A DNA stretch of 36,902 bases from assembly GCA_016219225.1 (NCBI GenBank), contig JACRBX010000217.1, positions 1 through 36,902 of the forward strand, read 5' to 3'. The position numbers and the translations under genes are program-made. This document shows positions 1,131 to 33,005 of this stretch, in pieces (position 1 is the stretch's first letter; every line of letters starts with the position of its first letter). The stretch is from Deltaproteobacteria bacterium. Its GTDB lineage: Bacteria; Desulfobacterota; RBG-13-43-22. The notes beneath the pieces are model-generated. The model searched no databases. It saw only the letters and a program-made list of their open reading frames with translations, and was not told the origin of the DNA.

Positions 1131-4100
1131 GTGACGGCTAAAGCAACAAGTCCAGCGTCGAGTGGACCGGCCGGTAGCCACTTCGAGGGGCAGGTGGGTG
1201 CTTACTACCTGCTCTCCATGTTGGCGGGCTCGGATCCACGTGGCCTGCCCGGCACGGCGATAGATCGCATTGAGTTCCAACGGGCGGCCGAAGACCGGCC
1301 GCTGGACGATGTCATCGTACATGCCCACGATACACGCGGAAATCCCGCCGTTCTTGAGATCCAGGTAAAGAGAAGCATCACTTTTTCACCCGGCGATTCG
1401 GTTTTCCGTTCAGTCGTGGGCCAGATTGTCAAGACCTCGCACAGGCGGGACTTCTGGACCATCCGCTATGAACTTGCGATCGCGATCGCTCGAACGTCTC
1501 GCAAGATCGAGGGCGCCTATCAGGACGTTCTGACCTGGGCACGACAGTTAAGTGACGCAACGAATTTCATGGCCCGGATTGATCGGCCGGGCTCCGCCAA
1601 CGCGGACATGCGCAACTTCGTGTGCACCTTCAAATCAAATCTGCACGACATCGGTTCGCCTGACGATATCGAGACAGTCTGGCGGTTACTGCGTAAGCTT
1701 CAGATCCTCGTCTTCGACTTCACCACCCAAGGCTCAGCGTCCGAGGAACTCGCGAAAGAACGAGCCGTCCACGCCCTTCACCCGAACGATACGTTGCGGG
1801 CTGGAAACCTATGGACGGCGCTGGTCGAGCTCGCGCTGCAGATCGCGGTGAGCGGCGGTGACCGCAATCGCGATGGACTGATCGAGGACCTTAGGCGTCA
1901 GTCGTTTCGCCTTGCAGGAGACCGGCGCTATACATCCGCACGTGCGATTCTCGAAGAGGCTTCCCGCAACGCGCTTGCCGACATCGGCAATCGGGTCGGC
2001 GACGTGATGTTGACTCGGCACGAGCGTATCACCGCCGTTCGCGCTGCCCTTGACAATGGCCGTTACGTCGAGATACGCGGCGACGCGGGCGTTGGCAAGT
2101 CGGGGGTGTTAAAGCATTTCGCCGTGCAGGGCGCTATAGAGGCGCGCGTTGTCGTGCTCAGCCCTGGCCGAACGACACCAAAGGGGTGGATTGCAATGCG
2201 GGCGGTCCTCGGGTTCGATGGCACAGCTCGCGATCTACTGACTGATCTCGCGGGCGACGGTGGAGCAGTTCTCTTTGTCGACAATCTAGACTTTTTCGAC
2301 GACCAAGAGCGTAGAACCGTTGTTGACCTTGTCCGCGAAGCTGCGAGCGTCCCGGGTTTCTTCGTGATCGCTACGGCAAGGAGCAACTTCGGAGTAGAGG
2401 AGCCGGATTGGTTACCGCCCGACGCACTCAACCGTTTGGGCCGCGCTGAACCTATCGTGATTGGCGAACTGAACGAAACCGAAGTTGACGAGATGCGGCA
2501 CGCCGCTCCAAGGCTCGCACCGCTGCTGGCCGATACTCACCCGGCACGGGACGTCACCCGAAACCTCTTCCGCCTCTCCCGCCTTGCAAGTCGGCCAGGG
2601 GATGAACCTATCCCGCGCACCGAAGTCGACATGGCCGAGCAGTGGTGGCAGACAGCCGATGGCAGGCGCGATAGCGACCACCGGGATCGTGCCAGGCTGC
2701 TTAAGACTTTGGCGGAACAGACGCTCTCGTCGGCTGAACCACTGGACATAGCTGATCGCCCGGCGAGGGTGGTCGATGCTCTAATCGCCAGCGACACGTT
2801 GCGCGACCTGGGGAACGATTGCGTCGCGTTCCGCCATGATGTCCTTCGCGAATGGGCGATTGCCAACCTTCTTCATTCCGAGCCGACGACCATCGAGCGC
2901 TTGCCGCTCGCGCGCCCTGCCTCAGCGTCTTTGGCGAGGGGTGTGGAACTCGCCGCGCGTATGGGCCTCGAACGTGCTGTCGATAGCACGCCTTGGTGGT
3001 TGTTCTTGGTTCGTCTAAGCCGCGAGGGTACACATGGTTCATGGCGCCGGGCGGTGTTGCTGGCTCTCGTTCGCTCCGAGATCGGCCCCGAACTGTTGAC
3101 ACGGACGTCTGGCCTTCTGCTCGCCAACCGCGCAAGCATGCTCCGAGAGCTCATCCGAATCGTGAGGGCAGTCGACGTAGAGCCAGCCTCAAAGTTGTTC
3201 GTTGGCATCGGGGCTGACCCGGCGATGATCCCGGCGAGTCTCAATGTTCCGAGCGGACCGTCATGGTCCCGGCTGATCAGCTGGCTGCTCAGCCTCGGGC
3301 GGACCTTGCCGGTCGCGGCAATTCCTGACGTGGTCAACCTTTACACCGCGTGGTCTATCGGAATGCTCGGTCACGATCCTCTGACTCCATTGCTGATCCA
3401 GTGGCTATATAGCTGGTTGACTGAGATTGAGACGGCCCGAGAAGCGGAAACCTTCCCTGTTCGACATGAGCCGTTTGGTGGCGAACTTGAATACGACCAA
3501 ATCGGATCACTGGAGTCCGACCTCCGCACCGGCTTTCTCTTATTTTGTAATCGGAGGCCCGCGCTCGCTGTTGAGTACTTGCGATCGTTGGGTCAGCGCC
3601 GGCGTAGTAAAAATGCCATACGTAGTATCCTGGAGTTTCGCGGGTCGATCGCCCAGGCTGCCCCCGCAGAGCTTGCGGAGCTAACCGCGACGGCTTTGAT
3701 TCCGAATCGTCGGCTTGACGAGCGGCACCACCGCCTCGAGTTCGGGGAGCCGTTCGATTTTCTCGACCACCAGTTTTACCCGGCGTCCCCGGCGCAAGGA
3801 CCGTTTTTTGAACTCCTTAGCCATGCCCCACAACACGGTTTATCGCTGATCCATCGGCTCGTCGACCACGCGATTTCATCCTACAACCGTGGCCGGGAAT
3901 ACGGCGGCGATGCGATCACGATCTCGTTTTCTAGTGGCGGTCGGGTTTTTCCGTGGATAAGATCATATGCATGGTCACGGGATGGCGCAGGGGGCCCCTT
4001 CTGTGTAACATCTGCCCTCATGGCTCTTGAGGCCTGGGCTCACCACCGGATTGAGTCAGGAGAGGTCTTCGTCAAGGTGCTCGCCGACGTGCTCGGCCCG

Positions 4101-6311
4101 CCCGGCTCTCCAGCGGCTTACCTTTTGGTTGCAGTCGATCTCCTGCTTTCCCATTGGCCGAAATCACGTGAGGCGGTGATTCCTTTTCTGGCTTGCCCAG
4201 AGCTCCTTTGTATAGACCGTGAGCGATATGTGCACGACAACTTCGAGTACCCGGATATCTTCGGCCTCAAAGCTCTCGAGAAGGAGCCAGTCGGCGCAGT
4301 TAGCCTCGAAAGCCTGAAGATGCGCGCTTCTCGACGGTTCATGCTCGATCAGCTTCTCGGTAAATACGCAGTATTCGGGCCTGTCGAACTGCGGGATACG
4401 CTGACTGCACTATTGAGCGGCGCAGCCGCAAGCCTCGGACCGCCCGACGAGCAATCGGACTTGAGGGATCCCGCCTTCATAGCTATTCACGCACTCAACC
4501 TTGTCGATCCTAATAATTGGATTGAGGTGTCTATCGCGCAGACTGATGGTACACAGGAAACGGCCTACCAGTACGTCCCGCCCGAGATCGAAAATCAATA
4601 CTTCGCATCTCTGCAAGAAGCCTCGCGGGACAAATTCACGGACAGTAACATGCAGGTCGCCCTCAGCTTGGCACTGGAAGACCCGTCCCGCTCGTCACCC
4701 GAATTTGTTGCGGCGGCGGTTGAATGGACGAAAAGCGCGGCGGCCACGCGGAAGAATGAAAACCACGACGAGGACCGGATGCGGGAACAGGCTGTCATCA
4801 CTGCGGCGATGATTACAATGCGCGATGGCGAAACCGAGCGACGCGCCAAGCATGCTGAGTGGGCGCGCAGCATCTTCGCCCAAGCTCTCCTGACTGGAAA
4901 AGACTCAGTCCACCGATTTCGATCCGGACTCCGTTACAATCCCATCGCGATTGCCTTCGTTGGAATGATCTACTTACTAAAGGATCGTGCCACTCCTGGC
5001 GACATACGCGCCCTCCTCGAAGTAGCTGCCCGTGACGACCCTGCCGCAGCTCATGGATTTGGCGTGGCATCCACCACGCTATCCTCCATTGACGAACGCT
5101 TGACTCTGGCGGTGCTGCGTTGCGCCTTTGCGGCCTGTATCAGAGGGAAGCGCGAGTGGGATCTCCCTGAAGAAGAGATTGCTGCGAATACAGAGCGCCA
5201 CAGGGTATGGATCCAATCGACCGTCAATGCTGAACTGACATGGCTTGCTGATGAAGGTCCTGAACCCGATTGGCCGAGCTTCCCGTCGGAAACGGTCCGA
5301 CCGCGAAGGGGTATTCGTCTACCGAGTAAACGAGAGCAGCAGAATACGTCCGCACCTCAGCACTCTCGACCAGACAAATATGTAGACCACCAAGCCGCAG
5401 CACTCTGGCTTAGAAACTTTATGGGGCTCGTCGATGTAGGCCAGAGGCCTTGGGTAAGAGAAATCGTTCGGAGCTATTCCCCTTGGACTTATGCGGCGAA
5501 CGGCGTTGGGCTGAACTCGTACGAGCAAGTCGACCATTCGCCGAGAGAATGGAACGATGCCTACTTCGACTTACTGGCCCACTGCCTACCCGGACTTGAG
5601 TTGCCGGAGATTGAGCAACTCGCATTGGCGCCGATCGGTTCGCTACCCGACGAGCCCTTCTTCGACGTAGTAACGCCATTCCTAAAGAGCGTTGATGTCG
5701 TCTATTTCAATGACTTTGACCTACAGGAGTCAATCGCGATTAGCATTCGGTCCACGATCGCCAACCGGTTGATGGCAAGCAACGGCTGGCGGAGGTTAGG
5801 GGGCAACCGATCCGGATCTATCGAGATGCATATCGGACCAGCGATCGCCGTTCTCTTTTTCAACGATTACAGCTTTGTCCAGCCTGCCAAATGTTACTTG
5901 CTGCCAAAGGGCATTGATCGGCTCCACTCCTTCTTGCCCGTGCTGGAAAGACTGGTCGACAGCTGTCCTTCGCTTTTTGTCGCAATCGTGACACTCAATC
6001 TATTAGAAGTGTCTCCAAGGTCGGTGCATCTGCCATTTATCGTACTATCGGCTAAGACTTGGATAGAAAGCTTCCCCGATGATAGCGACTTCTGGGTGGA
6101 TCACAATATCGGGCGCCGTGTGTGCGTGTTAATCGAAGAAATTCGGCGTCAGCAGCCGGCTCTGCTTAATCCAGGCAATCCTGTACGTTTCGATGTGGAT
6201 CGATTGCTCGCGGCGCTAGTTAGCTTAGGAGTTGCGGATGCCAGGCGACTGGAAGAAACGCTCGACGGACGATCGGGAAGCGAGGCGGGAGGTACCTCGA
6301 CTTTGTCTTGA
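1131..6311 (+). CDS. Very large STAND-type NTPase with N-terminal PD-(D/E)XK-like nuclease, putative antiviral (Avs-like) protein
   Basis: This is a 1726-residue protein starting at GTG 1131, six bases after GGAGGTGA. Residues about 15-110 resemble Mrr/Cap4-type (DUF4297-like) nuclease domains: an opening helix with Glu20 (HFEGQVGAYYLL), Asp59-Asp60 in LDDVIV, and Glu76-Gln78-Lys80 in LEIQVK, fitting a D...(E/Q)xK site. A P-loop NTPase follows, with Walker A GDAGVGKS at 317-324, Walker B VLFVDNLD at 380-387 and a sensor-like ATARSNF at 414-420. The remaining 1200 or so residues show no motif I recognise and are probably helical sensor repeats. In known Avs and related STAND defence proteins, a C-terminal sensor binds a phage protein, the NTPase oligomerises and the nuclease cuts DNA. 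That role here is inference from architecture. Codons are richer in CpG (CGC, GCG, TCG) than in neighbouring genes, which suggests horizontal acquisition. No signal peptide or membrane segment is evident. Confidence 0.8.
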   Translation: MTAKATSPASSGPAGSHFEGQVGAYYLLSMLAGSDPRGLPGTAIDRIEFQRAAEDRPLDDVIVHAHDTRGNPAVLEIQVKRSITFSPGDSVFRSVVGQIVKTSHRRDFWTIRYELAIAIARTSRKIEGAYQDVLTWARQLSDATNFMARIDRPGSANADMRNFVCTFKSNLHDIGSPDDIETVWRLLRKLQILVFDFTTQGSASEELAKERAVHALHPNDTLRAGNLWTALVELALQIAVSGGDRNRDGLIEDLRRQSFRLAGDRRYTSARAILEEASRNALADIGNRVGDVMLTRHERITAVRAALDNGRYVEIRGDAGVGKSGVLKHFAVQGAIEARVVVLSPGRTTPKGWIAMRAVLGFDGTARDLLTDLAGDGGAVLFVDNLDFFDDQERRTVVDLVREAASVPGFFVIATARSNFGVEEPDWLPPDALNRLGRAEPIVIGELNETEVDEMRHAAPRLAPLLADTHPARDVTRNLFRLSRLASRPGDEPIPRTEVDMAEQWWQTADGRRDSDHRDRARLLKTLAEQTLSSAEPLDIADRPARVVDALIASDTLRDLGNDCVAFRHDVLREWAIANLLHSEPTTIERLPLARPASASLARGVELAARMGLERAVDSTPWWLFLVRLSREGTHGSWRRAVLLALVRSEIGPELLTRTSGLLLANRASMLRELIRIVRAVDVEPASKLFVGIGADPAMIPASLNVPSGPSWSRLISWLLSLGRTLPVAAIPDVVNLYTAWSIGMLGHDPLTPLLIQWLYSWLTEIETAREAETFPVRHEPFGGELEYDQIGSLESDLRTGFLLFCNRRPALAVEYLRSLGQRRRSKNAIRSILEFRGSIAQAAPAELAELTATALIPNRRLDERHHRLEFGEPFDFLDHQFYPASPAQGPFFELLSHAPQHGLSLIHRLVDHAISSYNRGREYGGDAITISFSSGGRVFPWIRSYAWSRDGAGGPFCVTSALMALEAWAHHRIESGEVFVKVLADVLGPPGSPAAYLLVAVDLLLSHWPKSREAVIPFLACPELLCIDRERYVHDNFEYPDIFGLKALEKEPVGAVSLESLKMRASRRFMLDQLLGKYAVFGPVELRDTLTALLSGAAASLGPPDEQSDLRDPAFIAIHALNLVDPNNWIEVSIAQTDGTQETAYQYVPPEIENQYFASLQEASRDKFTDSNMQVALSLALEDPSRSSPEFVAAAVEWTKSAAATRKNENHDEDRMREQAVITAAMITMRDGETERRAKHAEWARSIFAQALLTGKDSVHRFRSGLRYNPIAIAFVGMIYLLKDRATPGDIRALLEVAARDDPAAAHGFGVASTTLSSIDERLTLAVLRCAFAACIRGKREWDLPEEEIAANTERHRVWIQSTVNAELTWLADEGPEPDWPSFPSETVRPRRGIRLPSKREQQNTSAPQHSRPDKYVDHQAAALWLRNFMGLVDVGQRPWVREIVRSYSPWTYAANGVGLNSYEQVDHSPREWNDAYFDLLAHCLPGLELPEIEQLALAPIGSLPDEPFFDVVTPFLKSVDVVYFNDFDLQESIAISIRSTIANRLMASNGWRRLGGNRSGSIEMHIGPAIAVLFFNDYSFVQPAKCYLLPKGIDRLHSFLPVLERLVDSCPSLFVAIVTLNLLEVSPRSVHLPFIVLSAKTWIESFPDDSDFWVDHNIGRRVCVLIEEIRRQQPALLNPGNPVRFDVDRLLAALVSLGVADARRLEETLDGRSGSEAGGTSTLS

Positions 6312-6364
6312 ACCTGGTAAAAGGAACATCATAGATACTTAGTCCAAGAGAGAAAGATATAACC

Positions 6365-7714
6365 ATGAAAAAAGTAAAAGTTGAGGAGGCCGTGAATTCG
6401 AAAAACATTCGGCCGGGGGATCGTATCTATTGCTCTGGAAACGCCGCTACACCCCAGGTTTTACTTAAACAACTGTGGGAGGATACCGGCATCAGGGATG
6501 TGGAAATGTTGAGTGTCCTGCTGCTCGGCGATATCGGACCCTTGTTCGAAGAAGAGGCCTGTGAGCGGATTACGCATCGGATTATTTTTAACGGGGACCA
6601 TTCTCGAAAAGCGGTCAACGAAGGCAAGGCCCGTTACCAGATCCTTCATCTCTCGGATATCCCCAGACAATTAAAAAAACACCTGAAACCGGACGTGGTT
6701 CTCCTGACGGTCGCCGGCCCTGACAACGGAGGGAACTACAGCCTGGGCACGACCGTGGAAGCCGTTCTGGCCGCGGTTTATACGGCCAAAGAAAATAACG
6801 GGATCGTCATTGCCGAAAGAAACCATCGGATGCCCTTCGTGCTGGGCACAACGATTCATGAAACCGATATCGATTTTATTGTCGACAGCGACTATGATCT
6901 GCCGCTCAGCCCGGTTAAGGAACCGGACGAACGGGCCAGAAAAATTGCCGACATCATCTCGGCGCTTTTTATCACCGATGGTTGTACCTTGCAGTATGGA
7001 ATCGGAGAAGTACCGGAAGCGGTTACCGAAGCGATCATCCGAAAAGGGACCAAAGATCTCGGCATACGAACCGAGCTATTCTCCGACGCCATGCGAAAGC
7101 TGGTGGAAAACGACCTGGTGACTAACCGTTATCTGACCAACCGTTTTTCGATAGCCACCATTTTTCTTTCCGGCAGCCGGGAAGGGTACCATTGGTACGA
7201 CAACAACAGTTCCCTGCAAAGCAGGCCTGCGGACCGGACCAACGGCATTCTTCATATTGCCTCGGAACATAAGATGGTAGCCATCAACAGCGCCATAGGG
7301 GTCGATCTTCACGGCAATATCTGGGCCGACTCTTTGCAAGCCCGAAACATTTACAGCGGTGTCGGAGGCCAGGCCGATTTTCTAAGGGGCGCCTATCTGT
7401 CCGAAGGAGGCGTTCCCATCATCGCCATGAAATCCACCACCCATGGTCTTTCAAAAATAGTCGACAAATCTCCCGAAGGAATCACAACCACGGCCATTCC
7501 GGCTGATCCGGTGGTCATCGTTACCGAATACGGCGCCTTTGATCCGAGAGGGCTCAGCATCACCGAACACGCCGTCGGAATAGCCTACCTGGCCGCTCCG
7601 GAGCATAGAGAAAAACTGCTCAGACATATTTTTGAGAGCAATGTTTTCAACAAGCCTGCCAGCGTCTTGCGAGGGGGAAGGCCTAAAGGATTTATCCCTT
7701 ATGAAGCTATTTGA
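6365..7714 (+). CDS. Acetyl-CoA hydrolase/transferase family protein (4-hydroxybutyrate/butyrate-type CoA-transferase)
   Basis: The 449-residue product belongs to the cytoplasmic acetyl-CoA hydrolase/transferase family, which moves CoA between acyl-CoAs and free acids such as acetate, butyrate or 4-hydroxybutyrate. Visible landmarks are TVAGPDNGGNYSLGTT in the N-terminal half, the YGIGEVPEAV segment, and RTELFSD carrying Glu237. By position this matches the catalytic Glu238 of 4-hydroxybutyrate CoA-transferase. The C-terminal VTEYGAFDPRGLS block is also typical. Length is normal for the family. It is the first gene of an overlapping set with the HTH gene and the alpha/beta hydrolase. The start is an ATG 53 bases after the defence gene, with a purine-rich GAGAGAAAG upstream. 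The exact substrate cannot be told from sequence. Confidence 0.9.
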   Translation: MKKVKVEEAVNSKNIRPGDRIYCSGNAATPQVLLKQLWEDTGIRDVEMLSVLLLGDIGPLFEEEACERITHRIIFNGDHSRKAVNEGKARYQILHLSDIPRQLKKHLKPDVVLLTVAGPDNGGNYSLGTTVEAVLAAVYTAKENNGIVIAERNHRMPFVLGTTIHETDIDFIVDSDYDLPLSPVKEPDERARKIADIISALFITDGCTLQYGIGEVPEAVTEAIIRKGTKDLGIRTELFSDAMRKLVENDLVTNRYLTNRFSIATIFLSGSREGYHWYDNNSSLQSRPADRTNGILHIASEHKMVAINSAIGVDLHGNIWADSLQARNIYSGVGGQADFLRGAYLSEGGVPIIAMKSTTHGLSKIVDKSPEGITTTAIPADPVVIVTEYGAFDPRGLSITEHAVGIAYLAAPEHREKLLRHIFESNVFNKPASVLRGGRPKGFIPYEAI

Positions 7715-26928: not shown

Positions 26929-28473
26929 TTATTTTTTTTCCACCTCCTCCTTTAAGGCAAATTTTTTCACTTTGCCCGAGGCCGTCCTGGGGAGTGGTTC
27001 ACAGCGGATAATGTAATCCTTGGGCACTTTGTAGGCCGCCAGTTCTGCAGTGCACAAGGACTTGACATCGCCCGTATCCACGAACTGCCCCTCCTTGCAG
27101 ACAATGACCGCCCAACCGACTTCTCCCCAGCGCTGGTCCGAGACCCCGATGACGGCCACCTCGGCCACAGACGGATCTTTCAGGATGATGTTTTCGATTT
27201 CGGCCGGATAGACGTTCAGACCGCCGCTGATGAACATGTCCTTTTTGCGGCCCCGGATATAGATATAGCCCTCCTCATCATATTCGGCCAGATCCCCGGT
27301 GTGCATCCAGCCTCCGGCAAAGACCTCGCAGGTGGCTTCAGGCTTGTTCCAATAGCCTTTCATGGTGGCCGGGCTCCGGATGACGATCTCTCCCTTCTCG
27401 CCCGGGGGAAGGCGGTTCATAGCTTCATCAACGATCAGCACTTCGCAATTGGTCACCGGCTTTCCGGCTGAGCCGATCTTTCGGACGGCATCCTCCTTTT
27501 TCATGTAGGTGGCGATAGAAGGGCCTTCGGACAGGCCGTAACCCTGGAGCAGGGCGGTTTGGGGAATCAACCGGTGAAAGGCCTCGATCACCGTCACCGG
27601 GACCGGTTCGGCCCCGGTCAGGACGCTCTCCAGACTTTTCAGACCATATTTTGACAGTCCGGGGTAATCGATCAATTGCTTGACGATGGTGGGGACGAGA
27701 AGCACCCGGGTGACCCTCTCCCGTTCGATCAGGTCCAACAGACTGCCGATCTCCAGCCCGCCGCTGGGCATGACGATCACCGTACCGCCCATCCAAAGGG
27801 TGGCCAGAGTGAAATCATGGAACCCGGCGACCCAGCACAGTCCGGGCACACAGAGATAATTTTCCCGGGGCGTGACCTCAAAATCGCCCACCTGGTGGAA
27901 GGAGTTCCAGGCCACCGTCCCCTGGGTGTGCATGGCCCCCTTGGGAAAACCGGTGGTGCCGGAAGTGTATTGCAACAGGAAGAGGTCTTCCGAAAGAACC
28001 TCTTCGAAAACCGGAGAGGCCTTAGCCTGATTAACCAGGACCGAATAGGAAAGGATAGAAGGGGAGGGTGCCGGCCCGCCGATGCAGATGATATCCCTGA
28101 GTCCGGGGGTGCCGCCTTTGCCAGTATCCACCAGGTTCAATAGATCTTCTCCCACCAGGAGCACGGAAGCCCCGGAATCGTTGAGGATGAACTCCACTTC
28201 TTTGGACTTGAGCAAAAAATTCACCGGTACCAGGACCGCCCCCAGGCCGGCCAGGGCGAAAAATATGTCGAACCACTCGGTGCAGTTCCGGAGGAGTACG
28301 GCCACCCGGTTGCCTTTACGGACCCCCAGGGACCGCAATCCATTGGCCAATTGATAAGCCCGGTCTCTCAATTGTCCATAGGTGACCCTCTCGTCTTTGA
28401 ATATGACGGCTTCCTTGTTCGGGGTGATATGACAGCCTTGATCCAGCCTTCTCAAAAAGTATCCGAAGTCCAT
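26929..28473 (-). CDS. AMP-dependent acyl-CoA synthetase/ligase
   Basis: The 514-residue class I adenylate-forming enzyme activates a carboxylic acid with ATP and CoA through an acyl-AMP. The P-loop LLQYTSGTTGFPKG lies at about 166-179, followed by the YGLSEGP motif, GWMHTGDLAEYDEEGYIYI, then RGRKKDMFISGGLNVYPAEIE at the hinge. The C-terminal catalytic lysine is in ASGKVKKFAL. I chose the ATG at 28473 (MDFGYFLRRLDQ) because AGGAAGGAAA lies just upstream; an extension to 28503 is possible. Best resemblance is to medium- or long-chain and aryl acid ligases. The real acid is unknown. It is divergent from the molybdopterin gene. Confidence 0.93.
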   Translation of the reverse strand: MDFGYFLRRLDQGCHITPNKEAVIFKDERVTYGQLRDRAYQLANGLRSLGVRKGNRVAVLLRNCTEWFDIFFALAGLGAVLVPVNFLLKSKEVEFILNDSGASVLLVGEDLLNLVDTGKGGTPGLRDIICIGGPAPSPSILSYSVLVNQAKASPVFEEVLSEDLFLLQYTSGTTGFPKGAMHTQGTVAWNSFHQVGDFEVTPRENYLCVPGLCWVAGFHDFTLATLWMGGTVIVMPSGGLEIGSLLDLIERERVTRVLLVPTIVKQLIDYPGLSKYGLKSLESVLTGAEPVPVTVIEAFHRLIPQTALLQGYGLSEGPSIATYMKKEDAVRKIGSAGKPVTNCEVLIVDEAMNRLPPGEKGEIVIRSPATMKGYWNKPEATCEVFAGGWMHTGDLAEYDEEGYIYIRGRKKDMFISGGLNVYPAEIENIILKDPSVAEVAVIGVSDQRWGEVGWAVIVCKEGQFVDTGDVKSLCTAELAAYKVPKDYIIRCEPLPRTASGKVKKFALKEEVEKK

Positions 28474-28542
28474 TTTTGGTTTCCTTCCTGGTCTTTGCAG
28501 CAACTTTTACACCGGTTGAGATTATCTGCCTGAGTATGGGGT

Positions 28543-28572: not shown

Positions 28573-28606
28573 GTAAAAAAGGAGGTAAGATGTCGCATTC
28601 AGGGCC

Positions 28607-28635
28607 TTGCAAATAAATAAACAACTCTGTATTAT
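28607..28635 (+). promoter_or_regulatory. Sigma70-type promoter for the molybdopterin oxidoreductase gene
   Basis: TTGCAA at 28607-28612, a 17-base spacer and TATTAT at 28630-28635 precede AAGGAGG at 28650-28656 and the ATG at 28663. Confidence 0.55.
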
Positions 28636-28662
28636 CAGCCCATACGAATCAAGGAGGTTTGC

Positions 28663-30807
28663 ATGATGGAAAAACAGCCTGATCAGTGCCGGGAAATGGG
28701 TGTCCGGGAAAAAATGCCGGAAGCGGAAACCGGTCTTGAAATTAAAAAGTCCATTTGTGCTGTTTGTTTCGCCCACTGTGGGGTCAATGCCTATGTTCGG
28801 GACGGCCGTCTTATCAAGATCGAAGGCACCAAGGAATATCCGACGAACGCCGGAAAGTTATGCGGCAAGGGGATGTCCAACCTGCAATATGTCTATCATC
28901 CCGAACGGATTCAAACCCCACTGGTTCGAAAAGGGCCGAAAGGTTCCGGGGAATACGTGTCGGTCTCCTGGGATGAAGCCTTGGACCGGATTGTCTCGGG
29001 CCTTACCCGGATAAAGGAAGAAACGGGGCCGGAATCGGTGGTCTTTTTTTCCGGCTATCCCAAATGGCTGCGGCCGTTCCTTAAGAGAATGGCCCATTCT
29101 TTCGGGTCTCCCAACTATTGTACCGAATCCAGCACCTGTTTCCTGGCCACAACTGTGGCTAATCAGTTGAATTACGGATATGGCGGTGCCGGTTTCGATT
29201 TCAAAGGGGCAAAATGCGTTCTGAACTGGAGCATGAATCCGTTTAACTCGGCAACCCACCTGGTGCCTCGTTTTCTCAAGGCCCTGGAAAACGGTGTCAA
29301 GCTTATTGATGTAGGGCCTCTGGATACTCCTCTGAGCAGGAAGGCGGACATCCATCTCAGGCTCCGCCCCGGTACGTCGGGAGCCTTGGCCCTGGGAATG
29401 GCCAACGTCATGATAGAAGAGGGACTCTTTGACCGGGAATTCGTGGAAAACTGGACCCTGGGGTTTGAAGCCTACCGGGCTTACGTGGAGGGTTTTTCCC
29501 CTGAAGTCACCGAAGGCATCACAGGAGTACCGGCCGATAAGATTATTGCCGCTGCGAGGCTCTATGCTACGTCAAAACCGGCAGCCATGGTCAATAGTGC
29601 CAGCACCACGGTCCATCATACCAATGGGGTGCAAAATCATCGGGCCATAACTGCCCTGATCGGCCTGACCGGAAACTTCGATCGAAGAGGCGGAAACCAT
29701 GTCGTTCCCGCATCCTATTATCATACGCCCACGGGACTGACCACCCGGGAAAGAGAATTTGAGCAATCCCGTCTATGGGAAGATATGGCCCCCCGTATCG
29801 GACAGGACCGCCATCCCCTATGGTGTAAGCTGACCACCGAAGCGCAGTCCACGGTCCTGCCCTTTCAAATCCAAAGCGGAAAACCCTATCCCATCAAGGC
29901 CGTACTGGGATTTGGTTTGAATTATCGTATGTGGCCGGGGTCTGATTTCATTAAAGAAAGCCTCGAAAAACTGGACTTTTTTGTGGACGTCGACCTCTTC
30001 ATGACGGACAGCGCGAAACTGGCCGATGTGGTTCTTCCGGCCTGCAGTTCTTTTGAGCGCAATCAACTGGTCATTACCCCGGCCAGATACGCCCTATGGA
30101 ACCAGCCGGTTATCCCGCCTGTGGGGGAATCCCGATCCGATGCAGAGATTATCCTGGCCTTGTCGCAAAGACTCAACCCTCAGGATACCTTGATGTCTCA
30201 AGGATACGAGGCCTGTCTGGACTGGATATTCGAACCGTCCCATATTAAAATGGCCGATATCAAACAACATCCCGGTGGATTCTTCCTGCCGGACCGCACC
30301 GAGACGCCCTATGAAAAATACAGGGTGGCCGGGTTCCCTACGCCTTCCGGAAAGATGGAATTCACATCCACCCTGTTGAAAGAGGCGGGGATGGATCCCC
30401 TGCCGGTTTATAAAGAACCGGAACAAAGCCCGGTTTCCGATCCGGAAATGGCCAAAGAATACCCTCTTATTCTCACCACCGGTTCCCGCCTGCCTATGCT
30501 GATGCACTCCAGAATGTACCGGATCCCTTCAACCCGGAAACTGCATCCCCATCCCACCGTCGACATCAACCCTCAGGATGCGCGGGTTCGTGGCATTTTA
30601 CCCGATGAATGGGTCACACTGGTTACCCCGAGGGCCTCCCTCCGCGTCAAGGCCAATATAACCGAAGTGGTACCGCCCGGTGTCACTGGTATGTATCATG
30701 GCTGTCCTTCGGCGGATGTCAACCGGCTCATTGATCCGGCTTACCGTGACCCCATCTCCGGATTTCCGGGATACAAGTCTCTTCTTTGCGAGGTAAAAAA
30801 AGTTTAA
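28663..30807 (+). CDS. Cytoplasmic molybdopterin-dependent oxidoreductase (DMSO reductase superfamily)
   Basis: The 714-residue protein binds one [4Fe-4S] cluster through Cys32, Cys35, Cys39 and Cys67 (CAVCFAHC, then KLCGKG) and a bis-molybdopterin Mo or W. Cys159 in TESSTCFLATT is the likely metal ligand by alignment with the family. Molybdopterin-binding segments include LTGNFDRRGGNHVVP and ADVVLPACSSFERN, and the C-terminal domain begins near YPLILTTGSR. No twin-arginine signal is present, so it is cytoplasmic. Overall layout and length resemble acetylene hydratase and related non-redox enzymes, but the residue after the second cluster cysteine is Phe rather than acetylene hydratase's Asp13. 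AAGGAGG precedes the ATG. Its substrate is unknown; it may act with the divergent acyl-CoA ligase. No partner Fe-S or membrane subunits are adjacent. Confidence 0.92.
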   Translation: MMEKQPDQCREMGVREKMPEAETGLEIKKSICAVCFAHCGVNAYVRDGRLIKIEGTKEYPTNAGKLCGKGMSNLQYVYHPERIQTPLVRKGPKGSGEYVSVSWDEALDRIVSGLTRIKEETGPESVVFFSGYPKWLRPFLKRMAHSFGSPNYCTESSTCFLATTVANQLNYGYGGAGFDFKGAKCVLNWSMNPFNSATHLVPRFLKALENGVKLIDVGPLDTPLSRKADIHLRLRPGTSGALALGMANVMIEEGLFDREFVENWTLGFEAYRAYVEGFSPEVTEGITGVPADKIIAAARLYATSKPAAMVNSASTTVHHTNGVQNHRAITALIGLTGNFDRRGGNHVVPASYYHTPTGLTTREREFEQSRLWEDMAPRIGQDRHPLWCKLTTEAQSTVLPFQIQSGKPYPIKAVLGFGLNYRMWPGSDFIKESLEKLDFFVDVDLFMTDSAKLADVVLPACSSFERNQLVITPARYALWNQPVIPPVGESRSDAEIILALSQRLNPQDTLMSQGYEACLDWIFEPSHIKMADIKQHPGGFFLPDRTETPYEKYRVAGFPTPSGKMEFTSTLLKEAGMDPLPVYKEPEQSPVSDPEMAKEYPLILTTGSRLPMLMHSRMYRIPSTRKLHPHPTVDINPQDARVRGILPDEWVTLVTPRASLRVKANITEVVPPGVTGMYHGCPSADVNRLIDPAYRDPISGFPGYKSLLCEVKKV

Positions 30808-30850: not shown

Positions 30851-31651
30851 TCAGGGATTAACGGCCTCGACCTCTAATCGAACCATTTTTATGTGAAATA
30901 AACCGTCAGCACCCATTGGAAATCGTTCATTGTAGGCATTTATTAAATCATCGATAAAAATATTTCGCTGGTTTTCCGGAATTCTTTCCGTATAAGGCAG
31001 CCAGGTCGTTCTAATCCAACCGGCTAAGCCATCCCTCCCTTTGTGAGTCATATCTTTGGGAATCAGCTCTAACCGTTTTGGGCTCAGCCCCACGGTTTTC
31101 AGCCACTGTTTATATTCATCGGGGGAACAAAAAGTGTAAGGAAATGAAAAACCATCAAAATAGGGCTGCCATTTTCCGTTTTGTATGAGTGTTTCAATTG
31201 AGGCAATAATATCCCGGGCATTTCCTTGGCCGCCCATCTGGAATACTATTCTGCCGGATTTTTTTAAACCTTCTTTGACTCCTTTTAATACCGCCATTTG
31301 GTCTTTTACCCAATGGAGAGCGGCATTGGAGAAGGTAATATCGAATTGCTTGCTAAAATTGAGTTTGGTCGCCTCCAAAAGGACAAATGACAGATTGGGA
31401 TATTTTGATGGAGGATAATTTTTCCGGGCAAGGGTTATCATATCCGGAGAGCTGTCTATGCCGGTGACCTTTCCATTTCTCAACCGGGAACTTAACAGGG
31501 CAGAAACTTTCCCATCCCCGCATCCGATATCGATAACCGATTCTTCTCCGGTAAGGCCAAGCTTTTTAATCAATTCTTGTGCCCATTCATATTGAACGGA
31601 GGAATGTTTACGGTAATCGTCGGAATTCCACGAATAGGTTTTTGGATTCAT
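30851..31651 (-). CDS. Class I SAM-dependent methyltransferase
   Basis: The 266-residue Rossmann-fold methyltransferase carries motif I VIDIGCGDGKVSALL, motif II GIDSSPDM, and the later FDITFSNAALHWVKDQ and KSGRIVFQMGG. The layout is closest to the trans-aconitate 2-methyltransferase (Tam)/UbiE-like group, because of the ALHWV motif. I chose the ATG at 31651 because GGAGAAAG lies just upstream; a TTG at 31663 would overlap that site. It stands alone, convergent to the molybdopterin gene. Substrate cannot be told. Confidence 0.88.
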   Translation of the reverse strand: MNPKTYSWNSDDYRKHSSVQYEWAQELIKKLGLTGEESVIDIGCGDGKVSALLSSRLRNGKVTGIDSSPDMITLARKNYPPSKYPNLSFVLLEATKLNFSKQFDITFSNAALHWVKDQMAVLKGVKEGLKKSGRIVFQMGGQGNARDIIASIETLIQNGKWQPYFDGFSFPYTFCSPDEYKQWLKTVGLSPKRLELIPKDMTHKGRDGLAGWIRTTWLPYTERIPENQRNIFIDDLINAYNERFPMGADGLFHIKMVRLEVEAVNP

Positions 31652-31865
31652 ATCTTTCTCCAAGTTTTCTGAGGCATGAGCGGGGGGCTACAACCTGAGT
31701 GCTCTGTTTACAAAGTCTATTAACGGTACACTACTTGCAATGATTTTTGTGATGGTGCGTCACCAGAATATCGAGAACTTTAACATTATAGGACCATAAA
31801 ATTTAATTGCAAAATATTTATAAACATATGGAAACCAGCAGGAATTCCCGGTCCTATTTTTCTTC

Positions 31866-31894
31866 TTGACCCGTCCTTTTTTTTATCTTAGAGT
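31866..31894 (+). promoter_or_regulatory. Possible promoter for the MetE/UroD-like gene
   Basis: TTGACC at 31866-31871, 17 bases and TAGAGT at 31889-31894. It lies 65 bases before the chosen start and argues against an in-frame TTG start at 31866. The gap 31652-31865 shows no gene. Confidence 0.45.
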
Positions 31895-31958
31895 CATTCC
31901 CGTAGAGCTTTTTCCCATCATCAAAAAAAATCTGCACCGGTCGACCAGGGTAGATCCT

Positions 31959-33005
31959 ATGAAAAGAACGTTTGAAAAGCCGGAATTTACGGCCACGGCC
32001 ATGTCCTTCGTTCCCTACCGGGAGACGCAAAGGGGCGTGGAGGCTATTCTCAAAAACTTCCCGGAGGCCCCCTGTCTTCCGGTCATGACCCGGAGTATTC
32101 GGTGGATGCTTGAAGGAATGCCTTGTCTGGTTTTCGATCGTGAAAAAAGGCGGATCCTGCTCGATCTCTCACCCTCCAGGGAAGGAGAACTCCTCGAATT
32201 CTACAACCGCTATGAAGCCAACGACCTGGATTATTTCGCTATCCAACCGGAGACGGCCCCCTTCCTCTATGCCATGATAAATGCCCTGAGCCGGGAAAGA
32301 CCCCAGGGGCTTAAATGGGTCGTCTTTCACACGGCCGGGCCGCTGATCCTGGGGGATACTATTAAAATGGTCGATGGGACCCCCGCCATCCATAACGAGA
32401 CCCTGCGGGATATGCTGATAAAGGCCAGCAATATCAAGGCCCGGTGGCTGGAAAGAAAGATCAGGGATGAAGTGCCCGGTGTCGAGATCGTCGCCGATCT
32501 TCCAGAAACGACATTGGTGAACTTTACTTCCGCGGGGGGGACCGGAACCCGGGACGAGATCATAGCTGCCATCAATGGAAGTTTTGAAGCCCTAGACTGC
32601 CTGACCTGGATCCACTGTTGCGCCAATGTGGATTGGTCTCTGCTCACCCAAACGACGACCGATGTCATTAATTTCGATGCCTATCAGCACGCGGATAAAG
32701 CAGCCCTCTATGCCGGAGACTTTAAGCGCTTTTTAGAGCGCGGCGGTATGATCGGCTGGGGGATCATCCCTGTTTCCGGGGAGGTGCTGGAAAAGGAAAC
32801 CCTGGAAAGCCTGTTGGACCGGCTTCAAAAGGGAATGGACCTCTTTGTCAAGGCCGGCATTAACGAGGCCTTACTGGCCGCTTCTTCCTGGATAATCCCC
32901 TCCTGCGAGACCGTTCTATTAACTCCCGACCAATCGGACCGGGCCTTCGAACTGACCCGGGAGATCTCCCGGGTCATGAGGGTCAGATACGGATTCGAGG
33001 ACTGA
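31959..33005 (+). CDS. MetE/uroporphyrinogen decarboxylase-superfamily protein, probable zinc-dependent methyltransferase
   Basis: The 348-residue TIM-barrel protein resembles the C-terminal catalytic half of cobalamin-independent methionine synthase and corrinoid-protein methyltransferases of the UROD superfamily. A zinc site is suggested by His219-Cys220 (and Cys221) in WIHCCANVDW and Cys316 in IIPSCETVLLTP, matching the H-x-C and distal Cys pattern of MetE. VVFHTAGPLILGD and NFDAYQHADK are further landmarks. No N-terminal MetE domain is present. The ATG at 31959 follows AGGG; upstream in-frame codons overlap the promoter. Methyl donor and acceptor are unknown. No corrinoid protein is adjacent. 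Confidence 0.72.
   Translation: MKRTFEKPEFTATAMSFVPYRETQRGVEAILKNFPEAPCLPVMTRSIRWMLEGMPCLVFDREKRRILLDLSPSREGELLEFYNRYEANDLDYFAIQPETAPFLYAMINALSRERPQGLKWVVFHTAGPLILGDTIKMVDGTPAIHNETLRDMLIKASNIKARWLERKIRDEVPGVEIVADLPETTLVNFTSAGGTGTRDEIIAAINGSFEALDCLTWIHCCANVDWSLLTQTTTDVINFDAYQHADKAALYAGDFKRFLERGGMIGWGIIPVSGEVLEKETLESLLDRLQKGMDLFVKAGINEALLAASSWIIPSCETVLLTPDQSDRAFELTREISRVMRVRYGFED

Follow-up and report, generated by a model that had tools for sequence, protein, structure and literature searches.

The molybdenum/tungsten (Mo/W) enzyme encoded at positions 28663-30807 of the 36,902-nucleotide stretch of Deltaproteobacteria DNA analyzed here (the window) belongs to a coherent clade of the DMSO-reductase superfamily, most members of which are encoded directly upstream of a ferredoxin. 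We consider it probable, judging from sequence, that the window enzyme is the catalytic subunit of a redox enzyme whose partner is either unlinked or lost. The original prediction, which had likened the protein to acetylene hydratase (AH) and related non-redox enzymes that lack a partner subunit, was sound as an observation, but its AH-like label was an over-reading: the enzyme is a new member of a known superfamily and, within it, of an apparently undescribed clade.

The gene is an unbroken frame with an ATG start. Its features and its immediate neighbors are as follows.

28663-30807, + strand: Mo/W-bis-MGD catalytic subunit, 714 amino acids, 79.5 kDa (Pfam domains, PDB matches, trees, mass)
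28652-28657, + strand: AGGAGG ribosome-binding site of the Mo gene (read in the sequence)
28756-28863, + strand: codons of the [4Fe-4S] cysteines C32, C35, C39, and C67 (alignment to AH C9, C12, C16, and C46)
28768-28770, + strand: codon of Phe36, which takes the position of AH Asp13 (alignments)
29137-29139, + strand: codon of Cys159, the presumed metal ligand (aligns with AH C141)
26929-28503, - strand: AMP-dependent acyl-CoA ligase, divergent neighbor (AMP-binding and AMP-binding_C)
30851-31663, - strand: SAM-dependent methyltransferase, convergent neighbor that shares no operon with the Mo gene (Methyltransf_11/25/31)

Three Pfam domains score above their cut-offs in the window enzyme (Molybdop_Fe4S4, 8e-16; Molybdopterin, 5.5e-45; Molydop_binding, 6.3e-19), and together with the cysteine ligand they make it a member of the DMSO-reductase (MopB) superfamily, in agreement with the bis-MGD enzyme that had been predicted. 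The ligand column (C159) holds cysteine in 79 of 85 aligned rows, and the cluster motif reads CAVCFAHC...C67, i.e., C32-X2-C35-X3-C39...C67. Inspection by eye revealed no twin-arginine motif at the N terminus, and the protein is apparently cytoplasmic; with no linked iron-sulfur gene apparent either, the earlier description of a cytoplasmic subunit standing alone in its locus holds. The host genome, a 5.93-Mb assembly of 353 contigs that is 98.9% complete and 4.8% contaminated, contains 25 PF00384 matches, so that the window enzyme belongs to a set of roughly two dozen. Among PDB entries, AH ranks first (2e7z; 2.7e-69, about 29% identity in the alignment), followed by the polysulfide/thiosulfate reductase of Thermus (2vpw; 5.3e-65), and an AlphaFold2 model built from five sequences (pLDDT of 48.7) was too poor for structural conclusions. 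Two further reading frames were observed in the vicinity: an eight-codon ORF (MSHSGPCK, 28590-28616) with a strong AGGAGG of its own in the gap 5' of the Mo gene, possibly a leader peptide or a remnant, and a 379-amino-acid protein (31866-33005, + strand) with no match in NCBIfam and none better than E = 0.04 in Pfam or the PDB.

Phylogenetic placement was assessed with an 85-row FastTree, a 58-row quick tree (L083 left out), and a careful 46-row tree with UFBoot/SH-aLRT support (L080 and L083 left out). The window enzyme falls into a fully supported clade (SH-aLRT of 100 in the 58-row tree, 100/100 in the 46-row tree) with L076 (66% identity), L077 (62%), L078 (58%), L026 from Geobacter argillaceus (54%), L079 to L085, L086, and L087, with L080 and L083 placed inside it by the 85-row FastTree. 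AH belongs to another fully supported clade, which also holds rows from Eggerthellales and others from genomes sampled around G. argillaceus. Phylogeny in the superfamily had been suggested as a check of the original prediction, and it spoke against it: the window enzyme lies outside the AH clade, and AU tests, run as two-tree comparisons on the 58-row quick tree, rejected joining AH to the whole window clade (p = 3.3e-5) as well as to the window protein alone (p = 6.1e-8). As an aside, an AH relative is present three times in one genome (G561:C1; L116 plus two other places), every copy matching AH at 85% identity across the query, with about 20 kb between two of the copies. Our literature survey, mostly at record level, recognized no description of the window clade, which is apparently a separate, coherent, and unnamed branch of the superfamily. 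Its distribution is patchy, with matches at E <= 1e-145 in 11 of 395 phylum-sample genomes (the host included) and in neither of two same-genus genomes; the best relative in the same-genus genome G002 is 38% identical and lies on a different contig from the G002 ligase relative discussed below. Horizontal transfer is likely.

Asp13 is the catalytic aspartate of AH (PMC6308299), and our alignments to AH bear out the earlier reading that Phe36 takes its place. In the 85-row alignment, which comprises 82 homologue rows and three references after prior removal of near-duplicate loci, this column holds H (37 rows), N (7), Y (7), P (6), D (5), T (4), G (4), S (3), F, E, I, and A (2 each), and V, Q, L, and R (1 each). 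The five Asp rows are AH itself and four members of the window clade (L026, L079, L080, and L081), three of which feature a ferredoxin gene immediately downstream, L080 being the exception; the residues of the 14 clade members at this position are F, N, N, N, D, D, D, D, N, N, E, T, T, N. Because four of the five Asp rows thus sit in the window clade, three of them beside a gene for an iron-sulfur subunit, Asp does not diagnose hydratases, and its absence from the window enzyme is ordinary rather than notable. In most clade members the loop is longer (CX2CX5C), so their Asp corresponds to AH Asp13 by alignment column, and a structural equivalence would be tentative. The CX2CX3C spacing that had been offered as a further likeness to AH is indeed present but not distinctive, being common to 58 of the 85 aligned homologues. 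K69 and R609 (AH K48 and R606), the metal ligand, and the four cluster cysteines are kept in the window enzyme. At the positions of what we take to be the hydrophobic cage of AH (I14, I113, I142, W179, W293, and W472), the alignment places A, P, F, T, N, and P, none of the six being identical. The authentic AH gene was among the loci recovered (L115, 100% identical over 289 query residues). In sequence terms AH remains the nearest PDB entry, but kinship with it, or with non-redox enzymes of its kind, is not supported, given the separate clade, the AU rejection, and the absent pocket.

The gene neighborhoods of the relatives point in a different direction. A same-strand ferredoxin gene lies directly downstream in 10 of the 13 homologues (39 to 66% identity), as a frame of 155 to 203 amino acids with at least two four-Cys motifs, and the ferredoxins of the clade are of the four-cluster type. 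No linked ferredoxin gene was found at L078, L080, or L086. Around the window Mo gene, no ORF with at least two four-Cys ferredoxin motifs occurs within 1.5 kb on either side, and a tblastn scan of the 36.9-kb window for traces of the relatives' ferredoxin came up empty (best E = 4.7); because the Mo gene lies inside the contig, this absence is not a contig-edge effect. In a 36-row ferredoxin tree, into which identical frames were entered once and which did not include the L083 ferredoxin, those of L076, L077, L079, L026, L081, L082, L084, and L085 group together (94/85), and that of L087 falls elsewhere. L084 and L085 are paired both in this tree and in the enzyme tree, and the ferredoxins of L076 and L077 are sisters, their enzymes grouping in one clade of four rows that also holds the window and L078; such agreement would be expected if the subunits were inherited together. 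The L076 ferredoxin is DmsB-like (TIGR02951, 3e-49, below the cut-off). At L076 and L077 the ferredoxin gene is followed by one for a pyridine-nucleotide FAD oxidoreductase, and a 29% relative of the L076 FAD protein adjoins the Mo gene at L085. This L076 protein, encoded by the third gene of its locus, comes closest in NCBIfam to PadH (8e-61; 206 bits versus a cut-off of 475), which is the NADH-linked epsilon subunit of phenylglyoxylate dehydrogenase. From these linked genes we conclude that a Mo subunit plus a ferredoxin was probably the ancestral layout and that the window copy is derived. The original prediction had named placement in a well-characterized clade with a known electron-transfer partner as evidence that would count against it; such a partner is encoded within the clade (10 of 13), but the clade itself is uncharacterized.

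Among the 12 host-genome ferredoxin-like matches placed in the tree (13 were found, and one on contig C95 was left out), none belongs to the clade's ferredoxin group, and a dedicated ferredoxin partner seems to be absent from the 98.9%-complete assembly. The best host-genome match of the L076 FAD protein is 31% identical. Two host ferredoxin subunits on separate contigs (L006 on C72 and L134 on C137 of assembly G000) are nearly identical to each other, perhaps reflecting duplicated or contaminating assembly sequence.

On the reading that we favor, the window protein would be a cytoplasmic oxidoreductase with a cysteine-ligated Mo or W. Electrons would move between the substrate and the metal, then via the subunit's own [4Fe-4S] cluster (C32, C35, C39, and C67), reaching a distinct protein, a four-cluster ferredoxin, and from there, in some relatives, a protein of the NAD(P)H/FAD type. 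For the window enzyme, this role may be filled in trans by the ferredoxin subunit that belongs to a different molybdoenzyme of the host, unless the partner has been lost; both the redox function of the window copy and a partner acting in trans are inferred. This reading is supported by the full support of the clade, the downstream ferredoxin at 10 of 13 loci, the eight-ferredoxin clade with its matching pairs, the DmsB-like and PadH-like partners at L076, and the retention of K69, R609, and the cluster cysteines. It is weakened by the lack of a linked partner at the window, L078, L080, and L086, by the 0 of 12 host ferredoxins in the clade's ferredoxin group, and by a moderately supported sister group (88/84) that is ergothioneine-synthase-like.

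We regard it as unlikely that the enzyme is instead a non-redox, AH-like hydratase, dehydratase, or isomerase that acts alone, with another residue replacing Asp13. AH is the best PDB match, the window enzyme is lone and apparently cytoplasmic as AH is, and the partner gene is missing at 4 of 14 loci, on separate tree branches; moreover, the AH clade includes rows with a linked ferredoxin (L119 and L125) as well as AH itself, which has none nearby, indicating that such a change can happen. However, the AU tests reject kinship with AH, Asp13 and all six cage residues differ, and the closest relative retains its ferredoxin and FAD genes. The name "acetylene hydratase" should not be assigned from the best PDB match, nor from the residue that follows the second cysteine of the cluster, because Asp occurs there in relatives beside a ferredoxin gene.

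Genomic context offered no firm guide to the substrate. The divergent ligase had been taken as a hint at a substrate that is, or becomes, a carboxylic acid, and we dropped this link: the host genome holds 85 AMP-binding matches (83 above the Pfam cut-off), a 71% relative of the ligase in G002 lies in a 17-kb stretch with no such Mo gene among the called genes, and ligase genes occur in the fetched regions of 1 of 13 homologue loci versus 4 of 20 control Mo loci, the region lengths of which differ. A TRAP-transporter association was likewise rejected, since permease genes (DctM match) at 5 of 13 homologue loci, in regions that are often shorter, are not beyond the control count (4 of 20); the TRAP labels (DctP and DctM) of the query genes themselves come from sequence reading rather than a family search. 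With neither association going beyond the control count, no substrate is drawn from context, and an imported organic acid, hinted at by the TRAP genes near five relatives, would be a speculative candidate. An indolepyruvate oxidoreductase and a ligase are encoded near L078; these neighbors, along with the PadH-like protein near L076, led us to consider that the enzyme might be a phenylacetyl-CoA:acceptor oxidoreductase (PadB). A rich catabolic neighborhood does surround L082 (3330-12096) and the corresponding part of L083: a same-strand cluster encodes the Mo enzyme and its ferredoxin together with transporter-like proteins, an amidohydrolase-2 protein, a reductive-dehalogenase (RDH)-family protein (TIGR02486; in L082, 193.5 versus a cut-off of 160.35), and an MtaA/CmuA-like methyltransferase (in L082, 185.5 versus 244 for the best model).

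The amidohydrolase-2 and methyltransferase neighbors at L082/L083 are compatible with aromatic-acid breakdown, and a reductive dehydroxylase acting on a catechol or hydroxylated aromatic acid, like those of gut Actinobacteria, would share the superfamily, the cysteine ligand, and the linked 4Fe-4S partner of the relatives. We nevertheless deem this assignment quite improbable, as the Eggerthellales relatives, the rows that stand for this family in the trees, group with AH and away from the window clade and the TRAP and ligase neighbors are not beyond the controls. It is tempting to speculate that the partner dropped out of the locus repeatedly (in the window, L078, L080, and L086), leaving the window lineage self-sufficient and exporting no electrons; metallopterin chemistry without a partner would then have arisen independently of AH, possibly near the sulfur transfer of the metallopterin-dependent ergothioneine synthases (MES), but we give such a scenario little credence.

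The link to MES comes from the trees, in which the window clade pairs as a sister with the L052/L053/L054/L061 group, which includes cysteine-desulfurase fusions, with moderate support (88/84 in the 46-row tree; SH-aLRT of 90 in the 58-row tree, without L053). MES may thus be the nearest characterized relatives of the window enzyme. Ergothioneine-synthase-like enzymes are not known to use an electron-transfer subunit. In PMC9516567, MES are described as fused to a cysteine desulfurase and co-encoded with a histidine methyltransferase, and in the proposed cycle a persulfide, rather than an electron-transfer subunit, reoxidizes the metal. The host genome appears to encode a MES away from the window: L061 (G000:C39, about 3744-7145, + strand) is a Mo enzyme of 1,134 amino acids that carries a fused cysteine desulfurase (Aminotran_5), with SGSAC kept and a C terminus of SCR, and right behind it lies a histidine-methyltransferase-family gene (L173, G000:C39:7275-8171; PF10017, 4.7e-104), a layout matching that of MES (PMC9516567). 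Pairs of the L061/L173 type are also present in G055 and G080. The window enzyme, with only the three Mo domains in its 714 amino acids, has no cysteine desulfurase domain, and no PF10017 gene lies near it, the sole host-genome match being the one on C39 beside L061. Given this lack and the moderate sister support, and with a ferredoxin subunit in most clade members, it is very unlikely that the window enzyme transfers sulfur or another heteroatom by chemistry related to MES, despite the sister relationship and the reoxidation by a persulfide proposed for the MES cycle (PMC9516567). A decaying or nonfunctional orphan subunit left after partner loss, with which the lack of a linked partner and of matches at this similarity level in two same-genus genomes would agree, is hardly credible for an unbroken 714-residue frame with all cluster and ligand residues kept, a good ribosome-binding site, and an end branch (0.27) close to its sister's (0.22; 46-row tree).

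A coherent clade of Mo/W enzymes is thereby marked out, with a dedicated ferredoxin and sometimes NADH-type partners. Compared with known systems (further background is given in PMC6013536, PMC13101534, PMC13416013, and PMC10100899), the window enzyme shares with AH of Syntrophotalea (Pelobacter) acetylenica (2e7z) the bis-MGD fold, the CX2CX3C...C cluster, the cysteine ligand, and a similar length. Neither has a linked ferredoxin gene, yet 10 of 13 homologues of the window enzyme do, and the latter differs by its separate clade (AU rejection), about 29% identity, and the lack of Asp13 and of all six cage residues. With MES it has in common the cysteine ligand, the four cluster cysteines, and possibly a sister-group relationship, whereas the fused desulfurase and co-encoded histidine methyltransferase (PMC9516567) have no counterpart at the window gene. 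The catechol dehydroxylases of Eggerthella and Gordonibacter are likewise bis-MGD enzymes with a predicted 4Fe-4S partner (PMC7028382); the Eggerthellales relatives, through which the comparison was made, differ in falling into the AH clade and in having His at the Asp13 place in the inspected rows. Finally, PsrA/PhsA (2vpw) occupies a separate tree branch, and the window enzyme scores 279.7 on the PhsA model NF012032 against a cut-off of 694, but the two share the cysteine ligand and Phe at the place of Asp13 (CEGCFWRC in 2vpw).
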